A DNA stretch of 64,000 nucleotides from the NCBI RefSeq assembly GCF_017795745.1, contig NZ_CP059067.1:2108001-2172000 (forward strand), given 5' to 3'. The position numbers were made by a program, and so were the translations under genes. The first letter of the stretch is position 1. Each line of letters begins with the position of its first letter. Below are positions 13,669-21,157 of the stretch, one piece after another. The notes beneath the pieces are model-generated. The model saw nothing but the letters and a program-made list of their open reading frames with translations. It searched no databases and was not told the DNA's origin. This stretch comes from Rhizobacter sp. AJA081-3. Its GTDB lineage: Bacteria; Pseudomonadota; Gammaproteobacteria; Burkholderiales; Burkholderiaceae_C.

Positions 13669-13708
13669 TTGACCGCGTGCAATGCTTCGATATACTTAGA
13701 ATTATGAA
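13669..13708 (+). promoter_or_regulatory. arsR promoter with overlapping ArsR-type operator
   Basis: TTGACC (13669-13674) and TATACT (13691-13696) are 16 bases apart. Transcription should start near 13703, almost at the ATG at 13704. An imperfect dyad at 13686-13708 (TTC....ATaCT-t-AGaAT....GAA) covers the -10 box and the start codon and would let ArsR shut off its own gene. No Shine-Dalgarno sequence is visible. The unusually AT-rich patch stands out in this GC-rich region. Confidence 0.6.
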
Positions 13709-14033
13709 TGAGCAATCCGCCGTCGCTGCGCTCGCCGCACTCGCCCAGGAAGCCCGGCTTCGCGTCTTCCGTGCACTGGTGGGCGCAGGCCCGCAGGGCA
13801 TGACCCCCGGCGCGCTTTCCTCGATGCTCGACATCCCGGCCTCGACGCTCTCTTTCCACCTCAAGGAACTGGTCCATGCCGACCTCGTCCATGCCGAGCG
13901 GGAAGGACGCAACCTGCACTACCGGCCCGCCCTCGGGCAGATGAACGAACTTCTCGCCTATCTCACCGCCCACTGCTGCATGGGCCAGTCCTGTGCACCG
14001 TCCAGCGGCTCCAAGCGCCGCACCACCTGCTGA
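13704..14033 (+). CDS. arsR: ArsR/SmtB family arsenic-responsive repressor
   Basis: This 109-residue winged-helix repressor has the DNA-recognition helix in 'IPASTLSFHLKELVHADLV'. It lacks the classic ELCVCDL metal site. Instead Cys91, Cys92 and Cys97 sit at the C-terminus, with a last Cys109. This is the pattern known for Acidithiobacillus-type ArsR, in which three C-terminal cysteines bind As(III) and methylarsenite. It is the first gene of the arsenic island, 12 bases before arsI. Translation is probably leaderless. Confidence 0.9.
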   Translation: MNEQSAVAALAALAQEARLRVFRALVGAGPQGMTPGALSSMLDIPASTLSFHLKELVHADLVHAEREGRNLHYRPALGQMNELLAYLTAHCCMGQSCAPSSGSKRRTTC

Positions 14034-14045
14034 CCCGGAGAACCC

Positions 14046-14516
14046 ATGAAGCGATTCCACGTTCACGTCCACGTCGAGGATCTCGACAAGAGCATCGGCT
14101 TCTATTCGAAGCTGTTCGCCGCGGAACCGAGCCGTGTCGAAGGCGACTATGCCAAGTGGATGCTCGACGATCCGCGCATCAACTTCGCGATCTCGACGCG
14201 AGGCAGCAAGCCCGGCATCGACCACCTCGGCTTCCAGACCGACGATGCCGAGGAACTGGCCGCCTTGAAGGCGCGCGCCGAGGCCGCCGACATGGCGCTG
14301 CTCGACGAAGGCAATACGACCTGCTGCTACGCGCGCAGCGAGAAGCACTGGGTCACCGACCCGCAGGGCATCGCCTGGGAGCACTTCCACACGCTGGGCA
14401 ACATCCCGGTCTTCAGCGAAGGCAGCAAGACCGACGCTGCAACAGCCTGCTGCACGCCGACAACCCGCGGCAAGCCGATCGGCATCCCGGTGAAGTCGCA
14501 ATCCTCCTGCTGCTGA
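14046..14516 (+). CDS. arsI: ArsI organoarsenical C-As lyase (VOC fold)
   Basis: This 156-residue ArsI/CadI family dioxygenase breaks the carbon-arsenic bond of trivalent methyl- and aryl-arsenicals using Fe(II) and O2. The family metal ligands appear as His5 (or a neighbour in FHVHVHVED), His60 and Glu112. The vicinal pair Cys93-Cys94 (TTCCYA) is the known arsenic-binding site. Two further Cys pairs (135-136 and 155-156) lie in the C-terminal tail. The product As(III) can then be removed by the ACR3 pump encoded in the same island. Confidence 0.9.
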   Translation: MKRFHVHVHVEDLDKSIGFYSKLFAAEPSRVEGDYAKWMLDDPRINFAISTRGSKPGIDHLGFQTDDAEELAALKARAEAADMALLDEGNTTCCYARSEKHWVTDPQGIAWEHFHTLGNIPVFSEGSKTDAATACCTPTTRGKPIGIPVKSQSSCC

Positions 14517-14619: not shown

Positions 14620-15663
14620 GTGAGAGTCGGCATCAACGGCATGGGTCGCATCGGACGGCTGGCCCTGCGTGCGGCCCTGGGTGCGGCCGAGCGCCCTGGG
14701 GACGATCCCCGCGCCGGCAACCGGCTGGAGGTGGTGCACCTCAACGAACTGAAAGGTGGTGCCGCCGCCACGGCGCACCTGCTGGAGTTCGACAGCGTGC
14801 AAGGCCGTTGGCGCAGCCGCATCGCAACCGAAGGCGATGCCACCATTCGCATCGACGACCGCCAGCTCGGCTTCTCGTTGCACGCGAGCGCAGCAGCGAT
14901 TCCCTGGGGGGACCTGGGCGTGGATCTGGTGCTCGAGTGCACCGGCAAGTTCCTCACCCCCGAGACGCTGCAGGGACACCTCGACCGCGGCGCCAAGCGT
15001 GTCATCGTCGCCGCGCCCGTGAAGGTCGGCGACGTGCTGAACATCGTGGTCGGCATCAATCACCACCTGTACGACCCGGCGAAGAACCGCATCGTCACGG
15101 CCGCGTCCTGCACGACGAACTGCCTGGCCCCGGTGGTGAAGGTGGTCCATGAAGGCATCGGCATCCGCCACGGCCAGATCACCACGATCCACGACCCGAC
15201 CAACACCAACCTGATGGTCGACGCGCCGCACAAGGACCTGCGCCGCGCCCGCAGCGCGATGCTCAGCCTGGCGCCGACCACCACGGGCAGCGCCACCGCC
15301 ATCGCGCTGATCTATCCCGAGCTCAAGGGCAAGCTCAACGGCCACGCCGTGCGCGCGCCCGTGCTGAACGCATCGCTGACCGACTGCGTGTTCGAACTGA
15401 AGCGCGAGACCACGGCCGAGGAGGTGAACCGCCTGTTCGCCGAAGCCGCGCAGGGATCGCTGGCCGGCATCCTCGGTTACGAGGAGCGGCCGCTCGTCAG
15501 CGCGGACTACGCCCGCGACACCCGCAGCAGCATCGTCGATGCGCTGTCCACGATGGTCACCGACGGCACGCTGCTGAAGGTCTATGCCTGGTACGACAAC
15601 GAGATGGGCTACGCCTGCCGCATGGTCGACCTGGCGTGCCACATGCAGCAGCAAGGCGTTTGA
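14620..15663 (+). CDS. ArsJ-associated glyceraldehyde-3-phosphate dehydrogenase
   Basis: This 347-residue GAPDH has an intact NAD-binding start ([15 protein letters not shown]) and the catalytic Cys164 in '[12 protein letters not shown]'. In ars operons this enzyme uses arsenate in place of phosphate to make 1-arseno-3-phosphoglycerate, which ArsJ exports. It starts with GTG; GGAAGGA eight bases upstream fixes the start. The next gene is arsJ, 16 bases on. An insertion-like stretch (residues about 20-33, '[14 protein letters not shown]') appears relative to glycolytic GAPDH. Confidence 0.92.
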
Positions 15664-15679: not shown

Positions 15680-16909
15680 ATGAACACAGGCACGCGCAAC
15701 TACGCGATCGTCACGGCGGGCTACTGGGGCTTCACGCTCAGCGACGGCGCGCTGCGCATGCTGGTGCTGCTGCACTTCTACCGGCTGGGCTATTCGCCGT
15801 TCACGCTGGCCTTCCTGTTCCTGCTCTACGAAGCGATGGGCGTGGTGGCCAACCTGATCGGCGGGTGGCTGGCCACGCGCTACGGCATCAAGCGCATGCT
15901 GACCGTCGGGCTGTTCACCGAGATCACCGGCTTCCTGCTGATGTCGGCACTCTCGCCGGCGTGGTCGGTGGCCTTGTCGGTCGCCTGGGTCGTCGGTGCG
16001 CAAGGCATCTGCGGCGTGGCCAAGGACCTGACCAAGACCGCCAGCAAGTCGGCCATCAAGGCCACCGCGGGCGACGCGTCGGGCCAGCTGTTCAAGTGGG
16101 TGGCCTTCTTCACCGGCAGCAAGAACGCGATGAAGGGCGTGGGCTTCTTCCTCGGCGGCGTGCTGCTGCAGGCGGTCGGCTTTCAGGCGGCGCTGTGGAT
16201 CATGGCGGCCGGACTGGCGATCGTCTTCGTCGGCGTCGTCAGTTTCGTGCCGCCGCTGATGGGCAAGAGCAAGGCGTCGAAGTCGGCCAAGGAACTGTTC
16301 GCCAAGAACCGCGGCATCAACCTGCTGGCAGCTGCGCGTGTGGCGCTGTTCGGCGCCCGCGACGTGTGGTTCGTGGTCGGCGTGCCGGTGTTCCTGTACG
16401 CCTCGGGCTGGACCTTCACGATGGTCAGCGGCTTCGTCGCGCTGTGGACCATCGGTTACGGCGTGGTGCAGGCAGCCGCACCGGCGATCGTGCGGCGCAG
16501 CGACGATGGCCTGAGCGCCGAAGTGCCCGCAGCGCGCCTGTGGTCGGCGCTGCTGGCCGTCGTGCCCATCGGCCTGGCCGTGCTCGTGGCGATGAAGGTG
16601 CCGAACCTCGAATGGGTGGTCGTCGCCGGGCTCGGCCTGTTCGGCTTCGCCTTCGCGGTCAACTCGTCGGTGCACTCGTACCTGGTGCTGGCTTATGCCG
16701 GCTCGGAGAAGGCCGCCGAGGACGTGGGCTTCTACTACGCCGCCAACGCACTGGGTCGATTCTTCGGCACCCTGCTCTCCGGCCTGCTGTACCAGTGGGG
16801 CGGCCTGCTGTACTCGCTGATCGGCTCGGCGGCCATGTTGGTCGCCTGCTGGCTGGTCACCCTGGCGCTGCCGACCCGCGCGCAGGCATCCGTCCAGCCG
16901 GCCACATGA
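15680..16909 (+). CDS. arsJ: ArsJ organoarsenical efflux MFS transporter
   Basis: This 409-residue major facilitator protein has about eleven to twelve membrane segments. The N-terminal 'RNYAIVTAGYWGFTLSDGA' (19 residues) and 'AKDLTKTASKSAIK' loop are hallmarks of ArsJ. It exports 1-arseno-3-phosphoglycerate made by the upstream GAPDH, and the product falls apart outside the cell to arsenate. Its stop overlaps the second arsR by ATGA. The pairing GAPDH-arsJ strongly supports the assignment. Confidence 0.92.
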   Translation: MNTGTRNYAIVTAGYWGFTLSDGALRMLVLLHFYRLGYSPFTLAFLFLLYEAMGVVANLIGGWLATRYGIKRMLTVGLFTEITGFLLMSALSPAWSVALSVAWVVGAQGICGVAKDLTKTASKSAIKATAGDASGQLFKWVAFFTGSKNAMKGVGFFLGGVLLQAVGFQAALWIMAAGLAIVFVGVVSFVPPLMGKSKASKSAKELFAKNRGINLLAAARVALFGARDVWFVVGVPVFLYASGWTFTMVSGFVALWTIGYGVVQAAAPAIVRRSDDGLSAEVPAARLWSALLAVVPIGLAVLVAMKVPNLEWVVVAGLGLFGFAFAVNSSVHSYLVLAYAGSEKAAEDVGFYYAANALGRFFGTLLSGLLYQWGGLLYSLIGSAAMLVACWLVTLALPTRAQASVQPAT

Positions 16910-17250
16910 ACGCGATGGACGAGAAGGCGGCCGTGCGGGCGCTCGGGGCGCTCGCACAGGAGGTGCGCCTGCGCATCTTTCGAGCTGTCGTCGGCGTCGG
17001 CCCCGGCGGCATGACGCCGGGAGCCCTGGCGGCCGAGCTGGCCGTACCGCCTTCGACGGTGTCCTTCCACGTCAAGGAATTGCTGCACGCCGGCCTGCTG
17101 ACGCAGGAGCGCGACGGCCGGTTCCTGATCTACCGGCCGAGCATCGGCACGATGAACGAGTTGCTCGCCTACCTGTCGGCGCACTGCTGCCAGGCCGTCA
17201 CCTGCGAGCCGGCATCGTCTGCGCCCGGCCTGGCGTGCACCACCTGCTGA
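16906..17250 (+). CDS. arsR: Second ArsR/SmtB family repressor
   Basis: This 114-residue paralogue of the repressor at 13704 shares the 'MTPGALAAELAVPPSTVSF' recognition region and the same C-terminal arsenic site (Cys94, Cys95, Cys100), with extra Cys111 and Cys114. It is embedded mid-operon, coupled to arsJ by a 4-base overlap and 31 bases before arsC. Two closely related ArsR proteins in one island may give graded or two-site control, or may reflect joining of two ars modules. Confidence 0.9.
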   Translation: MNAMDEKAAVRALGALAQEVRLRIFRAVVGVGPGGMTPGALAAELAVPPSTVSFHVKELLHAGLLTQERDGRFLIYRPSIGTMNELLAYLSAHCCQAVTCEPASSAPGLACTTC

Positions 17251-17281: not shown

Positions 17282-17776
17282 ATGAACGACAAGGTCTACA
17301 ACGTGCTCTTCGTGTGCACCCACAACTCGGCGCGGTCGATCATGGCCGAGGGCATCCTGAACAGCCTCGGCCGCGGCCAGTTCAAGGCGTTTTCCGCGGG
17401 CAGCCACCCCGGCACGTCGGTCAACCCGTTCGCGCTGAAGACCTTGTCGGCCCTTCACATCCCGACCGACGGCTATCGCAGCAAGGACTGGGACGAGTTC
17501 GCTCGCCCGGGGGCGCCGGAACTCGACTTCGTCTTCACGGTCTGCGACAAGGCGGCCGGCGAGGTGTGCCCGGTCTGGCCCGGCCAGCCGATGACGGCCC
17601 ACTGGGGCGTGGCGGATCCGGCCGCCTTCGAAGGCACCGACGAGCAGAAGGCCAAGGTGTTCTGGGACACGGCGGTCGTCCTCAAGCGCCGCATCGAACT
17701 GATGCTGGCCCTGCCTCTGGCGTCGCTGGACAAGATGGCGATCCAGCGCGAGATCCGCGACATCGGCAGCCGATGA
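17282..17776 (+). CDS. arsC: Arsenate reductase ArsC (LMW phosphatase type, thioredoxin-coupled)
   Basis: This 164-residue enzyme reduces arsenate to arsenite. The nucleophile is Cys12 in the P-loop CTHNSARS; Cys88 and Cys96 ('VCDKAAGEVCPVWPG') provide the relay typical of the low-molecular-weight phosphatase-like class that is recycled by thioredoxin. GGAGAATCCC before the ATG is a good ribosome site. Its stop overlaps the acr3 start by four bases, coupling reduction with export. Confidence 0.93.
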   Translation: MNDKVYNVLFVCTHNSARSIMAEGILNSLGRGQFKAFSAGSHPGTSVNPFALKTLSALHIPTDGYRSKDWDEFARPGAPELDFVFTVCDKAAGEVCPVWPGQPMTAHWGVADPAAFEGTDEQKAKVFWDTAVVLKRRIELMLALPLASLDKMAIQREIRDIGSR

Positions 17777-18801
17777 GCATCTTCGAGCGCTACCTGAGCG
17801 TCTGGGTCTTCCTGTGCATCGTCGTCGGCATCGCCCTGGGCCAGTGGCTGCCGGGCCCGGTCCAGGCCATCGGCGGGATGGAAGTCGCCCAGGTCAACCT
17901 GCCCGTCGGAGCGCTGATCTGGGTGATGATCATCCCGATGCTGCTGAAGGTCGACTTCGGCGCATTGAGCCAGGTGAAGCAGCACTGGCGCGGCATCGGC
18001 GTCACGCTGTTCGTCAACTGGGCGGTGAAGCCGTTCTCGATGGCGCTGCTGGGCTGGATCTTCATCCGCCACGTGTTCGCGCCCTACCTGCCGGCAGGCC
18101 AGGCCGATAGCTATATCGCCGGCCTGATCCTGCTCGCCGCGGCACCCTGCACCGCGATGGTCTTCGTGTGGAGCCGGCTCACCAATGGCCACCCGCTCTT
18201 CACGCTCAGCCAGGTGGCCTTGAACGACACCATCATGGTGTTCGCCTTCGCGCCGATCGTTGCGTTGCTGCTCGGCCTGTCGTCGATCACGGTGCCCTGG
18301 GACACGCTGATCACTTCGGTGGTGCTCTACATCGTCATCCCGGTCGTCATCGCGCAGCTCTGGCGCAAGGCGCTGCTGGCTCGCGGCCAGGCCGCCTTCG
18401 ACGCCGTGCTCGCGAGAATCGGCCCCTGGTCGATCGCCGCGCTGCTGGCCACGCTGGTGTTGCTGTTCGGCTTCCAGGGCGAGGCGATCCTGAAGCAGCC
18501 GCTGGTCATCGCGATGCTCGCCGTGCCCATCCTCATCCAGGTGCTGTTCAACTCGGGTCTGGCCTATTGGCTCAACCGGCGCCTGGGCGAGTCGCACAGC
18601 GTCGCCTGCCCGTCGGCGCTGATCGGCGCGAGCAACTTCTTCGAACTGGCGGTGGCCGCGGCGATCAGCCTGTTCGGCTTCGAGTCCGGCGCGGCACTGG
18701 CCACCGTGGTGGGGGTGCTGATCGAGGTGCCGGTGATGCTGCTGGTGGTGCGCGTCGTCAACCGGAGCAAGGGCTGGTACGAGGCCGGCGCCGCACCCTG
18801 A
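17773..18801 (+). CDS. acr3: ACR3 family arsenite efflux permease
   Basis: This 342-residue inner-membrane carrier has ten predicted membrane segments. 'LLAAAPCTAMVFVWSRLTNG' contains the cysteine essential for As(III) transport in ACR3, and 'VACPSALIGASNFFELAVA' is the second family signature. It belongs to the BART superfamily and is not related to E. coli ArsB. A 44-base gap leads to the ArsA-like ATPase gene, so the pump may be ATP-driven here, as in organisms pairing ACR3 with ArsA. Confidence 0.94.
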   Translation: MSIFERYLSVWVFLCIVVGIALGQWLPGPVQAIGGMEVAQVNLPVGALIWVMIIPMLLKVDFGALSQVKQHWRGIGVTLFVNWAVKPFSMALLGWIFIRHVFAPYLPAGQADSYIAGLILLAAAPCTAMVFVWSRLTNGHPLFTLSQVALNDTIMVFAFAPIVALLLGLSSITVPWDTLITSVVLYIVIPVVIAQLWRKALLARGQAAFDAVLARIGPWSIAALLATLVLLFGFQGEAILKQPLVIAMLAVPILIQVLFNSGLAYWLNRRLGESHSVACPSALIGASNFFELAVAAAISLFGFESGAALATVVGVLIEVPVMLLVVRVVNRSKGWYEAGAAP

Positions 18802-18845: not shown

Positions 18846-20867
18846 ATGGACACTCACCTGAAGATCAAGGTTCTGGGATCGGGTTGTAGCAAGTGCCGCA
18901 GCACGATCGGCCTCATCGAACGTACCGCTCGAGATTCAGGCATCGAGATCGAGATCGTCAAGGTCGAGCGCCCCGACGAGATCCGGCGCTACGGTGTGCA
19001 CGCCACCCCGGCCGTCGTCATCGCCGAGCAGGTGGTGCACAGTGGCGGCATCCCATCGCATGAAGCCGTGCAGGCCTGGTTCAAGCCGGTCGGCATCGGG
19101 TTCCTGAACCATCCGACGCGACATCTCTTCTTCACTGGCAAGGGCGGCGTGGGCAAGACCTCGCTGTCGACGGCCGCCGCGCTGACGCTGGCCGATGCCG
19201 GCAAGAAGGTGCTGCTCGTCAGCACCGACGCCGCGTCGAACCTCGACGAAATGCTGGGCATCGAGTTGCGCAACACGCCCGTGCCCGTCCCGGGTGCGCC
19301 CGGGCTGTCGGTGCTCAACATCGACCCCGACACCGCGGCCGAGTCCTATCGCCAGCGCGTGCTGGCTCAGATGGGCGCGAGTGCGAGCACGGAAGAGCTT
19401 TCGACCGTGCGTGAGCAGCTCTCCGGTGCCTGCACGACCGAGATCGCATCTTTCGACGAGTTCTCTTCCTTGCTGGCCGATGGCGCGCAATCCTGGGACC
19501 ACATCGTCTTCGACACGGCGCCGACGGGCCACACCCTGCGCCTGCTCAGCCTGCCCAAGGCCTGGACAGGCTTCCTGGACGGCAACGACCGCGGCGCATC
19601 GTGCCTCGGCCCGCATTCGGGCCTGAAGATGCAGGAGGTCCGCTTCAAGGCCGCGCTCGACGCCTTGAGCGATCCGGTCCGCACGACCGTGATCCTGGTG
19701 ACGCGCCCCGACCAAGGCGCGATCGCCGAAGCGGCACGCACCTCGGACGACCTGCGCGAGCTGGGGCTGAACAACCAGCGCCTGGCGATCAATGCGGTCT
19801 TCCATGCCAGTGACCGCGAGGACGCCGTGGCGCGCTCGATCGAGAGTCTGGGGCAGCTGGCGCTCGAAGGCATGCCGGCGTCGCTGCGTGCGTTGCCCCA
19901 GGACCAGGTGCCGCTGCGGCCCTTCGACACCGTGGGCCTGCCCGCCTTGCGGGCGCTGCTGAAGCCGGGCGCCGAAGCCGCCATGCCTCTCGCGACGAGC
20001 GCGACGGCCAGCGTCGATGACCTCCAGGGCCTGGGCGCGCTGGCCGACGAGCTGGCCTCAGCCGGGCACGGGCTGATCATGGTGATGGGCAAGGGTGGTG
20101 TCGGCAAGACGACGATCGCCGCCGCCCTGGCCCTCGGCTTGATCGAGCGCGGCAAGACCGTGCACCTGAGCACCACCGACCCGGCCGCCCACCTGGCGGC
20201 GACGCTGAACGGCAACGTGCCCGGCCTGAACGTGAGCCGCATCGACCCGAAGGTCGAGACGCAGCGCTACATCGACAAGATCATGGCGTCCCGGTCGCCG
20301 AAGCTCGACGCGGCGGAGCAGGCGCTGCTGCTCGAAGACCTGCAGTCGCCCTGCACCGAAGAGGTGGCCGTCTTCCATGCGTTCTCTCGCATCGTCAGCG
20401 AGGCACGCGGCTCCTTCGTCGTACTCGACACGGCCCCCACCGGCCACTCGATGCTGCTGATGGACGCGACCGGCGCCTACCACCGGCAGATGACCCGGGA
20501 GTTCGAGGGGCACGGGGCGCCGCGGGTGGTCACGCCCCTGATGCGACTGCAGGACGCCGCCTACACGAAGATCGTCCTGGTGGCGCTGCCGGAAGCCACA
20601 CCCGTGTCGCAAGCCGCCGCACTGCAGGACGACCTGCGCCGGGCGAAGATCGAACCCTGCGCCTGGGTGCTCAACAAGAGCGTGCTGGCCGCCGGCACGC
20701 GCGACCCGCTGCTCGCGGCGCGACTGGCCGGCGAGCGCAGGCAGATGGAACGCCTGTCCGCCGGGCTCGCCCGGCGCCTGTTCATCGTGCCCTGGCTGAC
20801 ATCGCCGCCGGTCGGTCTGGCCGCGCTGTCGAAGCTCGTCAGCGACAGGCCGGCGCAGCCTGGTTGA
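18846..20867 (+). CDS. arsA: ArsA arsenical pump ATPase with N-terminal thioredoxin-like domain
   Basis: This 673-residue protein is a fusion. Residues 1-80 are a small thioredoxin-like domain of the MTH895/TM0996 (thioredoxin_3) kind with the redox motif Cys14-Ser-Lys-Cys17 and a cis-Pro loop (HATPAVVI). Residues 90-673 are a duplicated ArsA ATPase with P-loops GKGGVGKT at 98-105 and 415-422. The three cysteines that form the As(III)/Sb(III) site of E. coli ArsA are all kept: Cys196 (GACTTEIA), Cys253 (GASCLGP) and Cys503 (SPCTEEVA). No arsD gene is present; the fused domain may deliver arsenite or reduce a partner. The ATG at 18846 is required to include the CxxC domain. Confidence 0.9.
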   Translation: MDTHLKIKVLGSGCSKCRSTIGLIERTARDSGIEIEIVKVERPDEIRRYGVHATPAVVIAEQVVHSGGIPSHEAVQAWFKPVGIGFLNHPTRHLFFTGKGGVGKTSLSTAAALTLADAGKKVLLVSTDAASNLDEMLGIELRNTPVPVPGAPGLSVLNIDPDTAAESYRQRVLAQMGASASTEELSTVREQLSGACTTEIASFDEFSSLLADGAQSWDHIVFDTAPTGHTLRLLSLPKAWTGFLDGNDRGASCLGPHSGLKMQEVRFKAALDALSDPVRTTVILVTRPDQGAIAEAARTSDDLRELGLNNQRLAINAVFHASDREDAVARSIESLGQLALEGMPASLRALPQDQVPLRPFDTVGLPALRALLKPGAEAAMPLATSATASVDDLQGLGALADELASAGHGLIMVMGKGGVGKTTIAAALALGLIERGKTVHLSTTDPAAHLAATLNGNVPGLNVSRIDPKVETQRYIDKIMASRSPKLDAAEQALLLEDLQSPCTEEVAVFHAFSRIVSEARGSFVVLDTAPTGHSMLLMDATGAYHRQMTREFEGHGAPRVVTPLMRLQDAAYTKIVLVALPEATPVSQAAALQDDLRRAKIEPCAWVLNKSVLAAGTRDPLLAARLAGERRQMERLSAGLARRLFIVPWLTSPPVGLAALSKLVSDRPAQPG

Positions 20868-20977: not shown

Positions 20978-21054
20978 TGGCCTGCCCGGAGGGACTCGAA
21001 CCCCCGACCCCCAGCTTAGAAGGCTGGTGCTCTATCCAGTTGAGCTACGGGCAG
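20978..21054 (-). tRNA. tRNA-Arg (TCT)
   Basis: Reading the minus strand, a 7-bp acceptor stem (CTGCCCG/CGGGCAG) is perfectly paired. The anticodon loop CTTCTAA gives anticodon TCT, the T-loop is TTCGAGT, and the CCA end is encoded (20978-20980). The D-arm (GCTC...GAGC) is intact. Confidence 0.95.
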
Positions 21055-21080
21055 CACGGGCCGTGGGTGGCCGGAAGGAT

Positions 21081-21157
21081 TGGTCGGGGTGAGATGATTC
21101 GAACATCCGACCCACTGCTCCCAAAGCAGTTGCGCTACCAGGCTGCGCTACACCCCG
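21081..21157 (-). tRNA. tRNA-Pro (TGG)
   Basis: On the minus strand the acceptor stem is CGGGGTG/CATCCCG-like: CGGGGTG pairs with CACCCCG. The anticodon loop TTTGGGA gives TGG, the T-loop is TTCGAAT, and CCA is encoded at 21081-21083. It lies 26 bases upstream of tRNA-Arg in the same direction, so they are probably one transcript. Confidence 0.95.

Follow-up and report, generated by a model that had tools for sequence, protein, structure and literature searches.

A thioredoxin-like domain of the MTH895/ArsE type fused to ArsA in a Rhizobacter arsenic island and in an ArsD-free branch of ArsA

Introduction

In the arsenic literature consulted, ArsA is treated alongside ArsD, for example in the available extracts of PMC6205960. 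In the ArsD-ArsA pair (ArsD profiles PF06953 and NF033727), ArsD has a thioredoxin fold, carries its cysteines near the N-terminus in a CC-x4-C site and is encoded directly before ArsA. ArsA of the R773 and L. ferriphilum type (1f48, 9nbl) has two P-loops and three As(III) cysteines. Another family with a bearing on this pair is MTH895/ArsE (TIGR00412, 'redox-active disulfide protein 2'), whose free-standing members are found at ars or ArsP_1 loci. Such genes are described beside ars genes in section 3.9 of PMC2963123, where the family is called disulfide oxidoreductase; as far as the extracts of that paper go, it described the proteins in ars operons in 2010 and proposed that they have a role in ArsC reduction. 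In the excerpted text of PMC3091736, the best SCOP match of ArsD is d1iloa, i.e. MTH895 itself. Among solved structures, the entry 9ncl is titled as an arsenic-treated thioredoxin.

Fusions between ars genes are known: ACR3-ArsC, ArsR-ArsC, AqpS-ArsC and ArsN with either ArsC or ArsD are given in PMC6205960. They likewise join ars functions, and none of those named in the extracts of that paper joins a thioredoxin-like domain to ArsA. Here, we analyse such a fusion in a window of 64,000 nucleotides from Rhizobacter sp. AJA081-3 (contig NZ_CP059067.1, positions 2,108,001 to 2,172,000). Its N-terminal domain is of the same family as the free-standing MTH895/ArsE proteins, which are separate genes and usually have CANC and TPGV in the copies compared, whereas the fused form mostly has CSKC and TPAV. 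Like ArsD it has a thioredoxin fold, N-terminal cysteines and a place directly before ArsA. Unlike ArsD it is covalently attached, has a CxxC rather than a CC-x4-C, has no match to the Pfam ArsD profile and is dispensable in its lineage. The ArsA part shares the fold, the two P-loops and the three As(III) cysteines with the R773 and L. ferriphilum type, but the two types are only about half identical.

Results

A single gene encodes both domains

The fusion gene occupies 18846..20867 of the forward strand as a single open frame, from the ATG at 18846 to the stop at 20865-20867, and encodes 673 residues. No clear Shine-Dalgarno sequence was seen by eye before the start at 18846. A sequence-only reading of this DNA had proposed that residues 1-80 form a thioredoxin-like CxxC domain, fused to a full duplicated ArsA, and both parts of this proposal were borne out. 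Residues 6-79 (18861..19082, forward strand) match Pfam Thioredoxin_3 at 71.6 bits (cut-off 24.8, E 5.6e-20) and the NCBIfam profile TIGR00412, 'MTH895/ArsE family thioredoxin-like', at 68.0 bits (cut-off 62). Structural hallmarks of the family are also present, i.e. the thioredoxin fold and a CxxC after strand 1, here Cys14-Ser-Lys-Cys17 (18885..18896). The AlphaFold2 model of the domain has a pLDDT of 92.6 and its best match with Foldseek/VIA is 1ilo, the structure of MTH895, which is also the closest solved structure by sequence. Thr54-Pro55-Ala56 (19005..19013) stands at what we take to be the cis-Pro position of the thioredoxin fold. A chance CxxC is ruled out by the profile match, the fold and the conservation of the motif.

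By the limits of the profile domains, a short linker of ~11 residues (19083..19115) leads to ArsA, both halves of which are contained in 19101..20864. The match to TIGR04291 covers residues 90-652 at 705.6 bits (cut-off 650), and the model resembles the solved ArsA structures from L. ferriphilum and from E. coli. Each half has a P-loop, GKGGVGKT, located by alignment at residue 98 (19137..19160) and at residue 415 (20088..20111). Three candidate As(III)-site cysteines, assigned by context and each in an invariant column, are Cys196 (19431..19433), Cys253 (19602..19604) and Cys503 (20352..20354); given their conserved contexts, they presumably correspond to Cys113, Cys172 and Cys422 of E. coli ArsA. 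From its family membership, the protein is predicted to be an ArsA-type, As(III)-stimulated efflux ATPase.

A separate translation start near residue 85, as the only one used, had been named as one of two circumstances that would speak against the fusion, the other being a profile search without a thioredoxin-like match. The only in-frame ATG, GTG or TTG codons in codons 1-110, besides the start itself, are GTG at 51, 63, 64, 75 and 102. There is no second in-frame ATG within these first 110 codons and no start codon of any of the three kinds near residue 85, which rules out a separate start there. Nor is the gene an assembly fault, since the same fusion is found in 53 of 116 distinct relatives, isolates among them.

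The surrounding arsenic island

Upstream of the fusion gene and on the same strand, the island encodes an ArsR-type regulator (13704..14033; HTH_20, HTH_5), an ArsI/CadI metalloenzyme (14046..14516; NF041414), an ArsJ-associated GAPDH (14620..15663; NF033735), the ArsJ transporter (15680..16909; NF033734), another ArsR-type regulator (16906..17250; HTH_20, HTH_5), an ArsC of the low-molecular-weight phosphatase (LMWP) type (17282..17776; PF01451, with arsC_pI258 as top NCBIfam match, under its cut-off) and the arsenite efflux permease ACR3 (17773..18801; TIGR00832, 388 bits). ACR3 is separated from the fusion gene by 44 bases and is likely the membrane partner of the fused ArsA. The sequence-only reading had found no arsD in the island, and indeed the Pfam ArsD profile (PF06953) has no match in the island or in the whole genome.

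Three arsenic routes are joined between 14046 and 18801: ArsI/CadI, ArsJ with its GAPDH, and ArsC with ACR3. The right end of the island, 110 bases past the fusion gene, has tRNA-Arg (tct) and tRNA-Pro (tgg) at 20978-21157 on the reverse strand; tRNA genes are common borders of such islands.

Two groups of ArsA, one of them without ArsD

The pooled ArsA loci, 206 in total and 169 when made distinct, split cleanly by their identity to the source: 116 have 63-87% (the source itself 100%) and 53 have 48-53%. ArsD adjoins ArsA in 49 of the 53 loci of the second group vs none of the 116 in the first. The numbers are much the same, 47/50 vs 0/109, if one considers only loci with more than 1.2 kb upstream. 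Genome-wide, ArsD was found in a single one of the 36 genomes of the first group, and this one genome encodes a second-group ArsA as well. The fusion is confined to the first, ArsD-free group. In this group the domain is fused to ArsA in 53 loci, present as a partial remnant in 8, encoded by a separate neighbouring gene in 2 and lacking in 53, with flanks from <1 kb to ~9 kb depending on the locus. Within the available flanks, these last 53 loci lack ArsD as well as any recognisable domain. The two separate cases are a plasmid of Ideonella and locus L163, a fused-type gene that is broken in a 77%-complete assembly.

All aligned ArsA rows of both groups have the three As(III) cysteines (52 fused, 7 with a remnant, 53 domainless, 1 adjacent and 52 of the second group; rows under 450 aa, i.e. 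L204, L163, L174 and L156, are left out of the alignment), and the two P-loops are kept in the three large sets of rows in which they were counted. An extra cysteine at source column 109 is present in 51 of the 52 second-group, arsD-linked rows; the first group does not conserve a cysteine there. ACR3 scores above its cut-off in 24 of the 36 first-group genomes.

Early-branching members of the first group are informative on the order of events. Among these 29 loci, 28 have neither ArsD nor the domain and one has a separate domain gene adjoining ArsA. Since they already lack ArsD, the absence of ArsD is older than the fusion, which rules out the fusion as the cause of arsD loss, and the fused domain is no obligatory replacement for ArsD.

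We compared the presence of the fusion with the ars context (ACR3, ArsC, ArsH and others), gene by gene, in the 66 of 87 fusion-group loci with enough flank, searching ~6 kb on each side and excluding two broken rows. No association was significant in these tests, which ignore shared ancestry. Genes of a reference set (ACR3, the two ArsC types, ArsH, ArsI, ArsJ, aquaporin and ArsP_1, with ArsB outside the set) are near 17 of the 41 fused loci and near 10 of the 25 that are unfused. The remaining 24 fused and 15 unfused loci have no other reference ars gene near, so the substrate and the partner of this ArsA branch may differ between loci.

Two other types of neighbours were observed. In 12 of the 116 ArsD-free loci (9 fused, 3 domainless) ArsA is directly followed by a gene of one cluster, assigned to DUF302 from the one member scanned (L103:8050-8457; the others are in L079, L080, L082, L084, L085, L089, L095, L119, L145, L179 and L202), and 7 of these 12 have no other reference ars gene near. 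In six loci a gene of the cation diffusion facilitator type is near ArsA (L106:4948-5901, L085, L099, L100, L133 and L157), four of them also having an ArsP_1-type permease. Such a neighbour may point to a metal other than arsenic for ArsA of this branch.

Distribution of the fusion

The sequence-only reading had left room for similar fusions being already in the databases. This was right as far as sequences go, given the 53 fused loci, but no account of a thioredoxin-ArsA fusion turned up in the open-access literature searched. In the genus sample, six of eight genomes have an ArsA match; the gene is fused in the source and in two others (G590, G589) and in pieces in a fourth (G588). Fusions become scarce in broader samples: 6 fused, including the source genome, among 49 genomes with ArsA out of 200 in the family, and only the source genome itself among 40 with ArsA out of 399 in the order and among 11 out of 398 in the phylum (fusion in the family and order samples being scored by alignment of the N-terminus). 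Many more were found in the best 80 of 402 contigs of a scan with six peptide words, of which one lies in the thioredoxin part. These 80 are mainly, by titles and lineages, from Sphaerotilaceae, Comamonadaceae, Oxalobacteraceae or unassigned Burkholderiales bins. Naturally, a frequency of 53/116 overstates the commonness of the fusion, because both the query and the choice of the best 80 favour fusions. The carriers include the isolates Rhizobacter sp. Root404, Rubrivivax albus and Massilia eurypsychrophila.

A tblastn search matched 2236 plasmid records. None of the best 60 has the fusion; one, the Ideonella plasmid, has thioredoxin sequence matching the N-terminal domain, as a separate gene, and one other match reaching residue 46 overlies an arsD gene. 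Ten phage records match, and in none of the five listed is the N-terminus covered. A planctomycete metagenome-assembled genome (L101) has the fusion at 75% identity, which may be a binning error. ArsA comes in several pieces, on one contig or on two, in L174/L176 (G770) and at G549:C1:2169736-2171416; these might be split genes, pseudogenes or assembly breaks.

A probable single origin and repeated losses

In a tree of the domain all 53 fused rows (47 distinct loci and 6 copies) form one clade with 100/100 support and a long stem (L110, L130, L155, L202, L203 and L204 are absent from this tree). Of the 30 rows scored free-standing, 29 fall outside this clade; the exception is the broken L163. 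Though the domain offers few columns, this points to one fusion event. The tree of ArsA alone, a quick tree rooted with 11 of the 52 arsD-linked rows, is less simple. Its early branches (29 loci) are unfused, and fused loci are in two groups with SH-aLRT of 99 and 97, with unfused members inside both; the tree does not separate the union of the two from an unfused group of five rows. The label 'fused' requires at least 20 changes on this tree, at least 9 of them forced by well-supported branches, which means repeated loss of the domain. Hence, the fusion seems to stem from one event, with many losses thereafter.

Traces of these losses can be seen. In unfused members inside the fusion group, the N-terminal word of the domain, the word near its end, or both often remain while the core is gone. 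With a scoring matrix and 200 shuffles per row, 15 of the 34 unfused loci inside the fusion group show such a vestige (p <= 0.005), vs 0/29 early-branching loci and 0/53 of the second group; without L136 (at a contig end) and the broken L163 the count is 14/32, and many of these rows are metagenome bins. Variovorax offers a pair that differs in the domain, fused in sp. YR216 (L095) and eroded in sp. WDL1 (L145). The test reads only the last 75 upstream residues and therefore misses the N-terminal word in most intact fused proteins (found in 2/53, vs 51/53 for the C-terminal word). Locus L133 (6001-7911) has an in-frame deletion of ~24 residues inside the domain that spares the CxxC and the TPA, and a separate copy of the domain lies ~3 kb upstream.

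Where it is kept, the domain is conserved. The CxxC is intact in 52 of the 53 fused loci, L148 having lost the first cysteine, and Cys17, Thr54, Pro55, Ala56, His65, Gly67 and Trp78 are invariant in the 49 fused rows compared, with Cys14 at 98%. Median dN/dS is 0.27 for the domain and 0.14 for ArsA (896 of 1176 pairs usable; L204, L130, L110 and L155 are excluded from the dN/dS and structure sets). As judged from these substitution patterns, the retained domain is under purifying selection, and a dN/dS well below 1 together with near-invariant CxxC and TPA suggests a selected thiol function.

Kinship with ArsD and free-standing relatives

Alignments of the fused domain and of ArsD match each other with 95% probability in hhalign (E 3.8e-8, 56 columns), whereas the best of 40 column-shuffled ArsD alignments reaches 3.0%. 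A single ArsD sequence matches the domain profile weakly (38%), and ArsD structures surface at E 0.08 in a profile search. In a Foldseek search with the domain model MTH895 comes first and ArsD (3kgk and 3mwh) has ranks 35 and 37, with a TM of 0.59, so that many ordinary thioredoxins outrank ArsD by fold. The cysteines are at similar positions: counted along the aligned fragment, the CC-x4-C of ArsD starts at residue 10-12 in 49/49 sequences, and the fused CxxC is at residue 14 in the source and at ~10 in relatives starting four residues later. The ArsD site itself is not in the fused domain, which has CSKC at 14-17 instead; the 20 Pfam families matched do not include PF06953, nor do the 25 listed of the 41 NCBIfam matches include NF033727. 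On these profile and fold comparisons, the fused domain is a distant cousin of ArsD that is not ArsD by family.

Domains of the MTH895/ArsE type are present in 34 of the 200 genomes of the family sample. Of the 33 non-fused matches, 24 genes were fetched, and 18 of these have an ArsP_1-type permease within ~1.5 kb. Identity to the permease of Ideonella is 58-88% in 17 of the 18 and 29% in the other. Within the same distance, one has ACR3 and one a glutaredoxin-type ArsC. Since most adjoin a permease, the results suggest that the donor family already served efflux before the fusion. In the plasmid of Ideonella dechloratans the order is ArsP_1 permease, free-standing domain and ArsA, the last two being 7 bases apart. 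This is a plausible pre-fusion arrangement, even if that copy is not the nearest to the fused clade on the tree.

Discussion

We showed that a branch of ArsA without ArsD has acquired, apparently once, a thioredoxin-like domain that many of its members have since lost. What does the domain do? The sequence-only reading suggested that it could replace ArsD. In favour of this are the ArsD-like fold, the profile similarity, the similar position of the cysteines and the lack of ArsD in all 116 loci. Yet, with neither ArsD nor the domain in 53 of these loci and in 28 of the 29 early-branching ones, and with repeated loss, the idea is supported in part and fails as a replacement that ArsA would need. 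Our preferred reading, which we hold tentatively and at somewhat less than even chances, is that the fused domain is a tethered dithiol that receives As(III) for transfer to ArsA and is useful yet dispensable. In their reduced state, Cys14 and Cys17 would accept As(III), or Sb(III), from thiols of the cytosol; the ~11-residue linker would hold the domain near ArsA; the metalloid would move on to Cys196, Cys253 and Cys503; and ArsA would hydrolyse ATP and deliver it to the ACR3 encoded just upstream. The domain would then be ArsD-like in action though not ArsD by family. Its benefit would be conditional, because the ArsA of this lineage persists without it, and this would explain the repeated losses. 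Several observations count against this reading: the fused domain has two cysteines vs three in the ArsD motif, its presence does not track the ars context, the match to a single ArsD is weak, thioredoxins outrank ArsD by fold, and section 3.9 of PMC2963123 calls the free-standing form an oxidoreductase.

The last two points would fit better with a redox guardian. As a disulfide reductase, the domain would maintain the three As(III)-binding cysteines of the ArsA it is attached to in reduced form, or make the pump depend on redox state, while carrying no arsenic. The CxxC intact in 52/53 loci, the invariant Thr54-Pro55-Ala56 and thioredoxins as closest structures are all what one would expect of such an enzyme. 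Yet, domainless ArsA rows keep the same three cysteines, so there is no visible special need for a dedicated reductase, and the free-standing relatives are mostly paired with a permease. We regard this alternative as unlikely, albeit the strongest of the rivals. Kinship with ArsD, a position just before ArsA and this permease association are our reasons for preferring the tethered dithiol over a pure reductase. The same association weighs on another idea of the sequence-only reading, that the domain couples thioredoxin-type reduction to efflux by recycling the ArsC of the island, so that both would be carried out on one protein. An LMWP-type ArsC is indeed encoded two genes upstream of the fusion gene and extracts of PMC2963123 propose a similar role for the free-standing relatives. 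But LMWP ArsC is only somewhat commoner at fused loci (16/41 vs 6/25, p = 0.28), 25 of the 41 fused loci have none in ~6 kb on each side, and the relatives are near an ArsP_1-type permease in 18 of 24 cases vs near an ArsC, of the glutaredoxin type, in one. This idea was thus not supported and we think it very improbable. Finally, the domain might be an accessory appendage with little catalytic effect, acting in stability, localisation or membrane docking, kept in some lineages and eroding in others. The 20 changes of label on the ArsA tree, the vestiges and the faster evolution of the domain relative to ArsA are in line with erosion; the low dN/dS and the near-invariant CxxC and TPA in 49 rows are at odds with it, and we find it improbable, if less so than the recycling of ArsC.

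One might speculate further that the fusion is a second, ArsD-free way to load ArsA. A redox-active cousin of ArsD would have been recruited once from a permease-associated thioredoxin to become a two-thiol, redox-gated loading arm, and the ATP-driven pump would take up metalloid only with this arm in the reduced state. This more specific scenario is doubtful, and we give it slightly less credit than the dedicated reductase.

Whatever the role of the domain, here is an ArsA branch that kept its catalytic motifs and yet was never found beside ArsD, and to which an ArsD-related redox domain was fused once and lost often. Close relatives with and without the domain permit a direct test of the contribution of a chaperone domain to ArsA, and of As(III) carriage by a CxxC of the thioredoxin type. 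If the fused domain is a loading arm, its natural losses would be ready controls for what a metallochaperone adds to ArsA.
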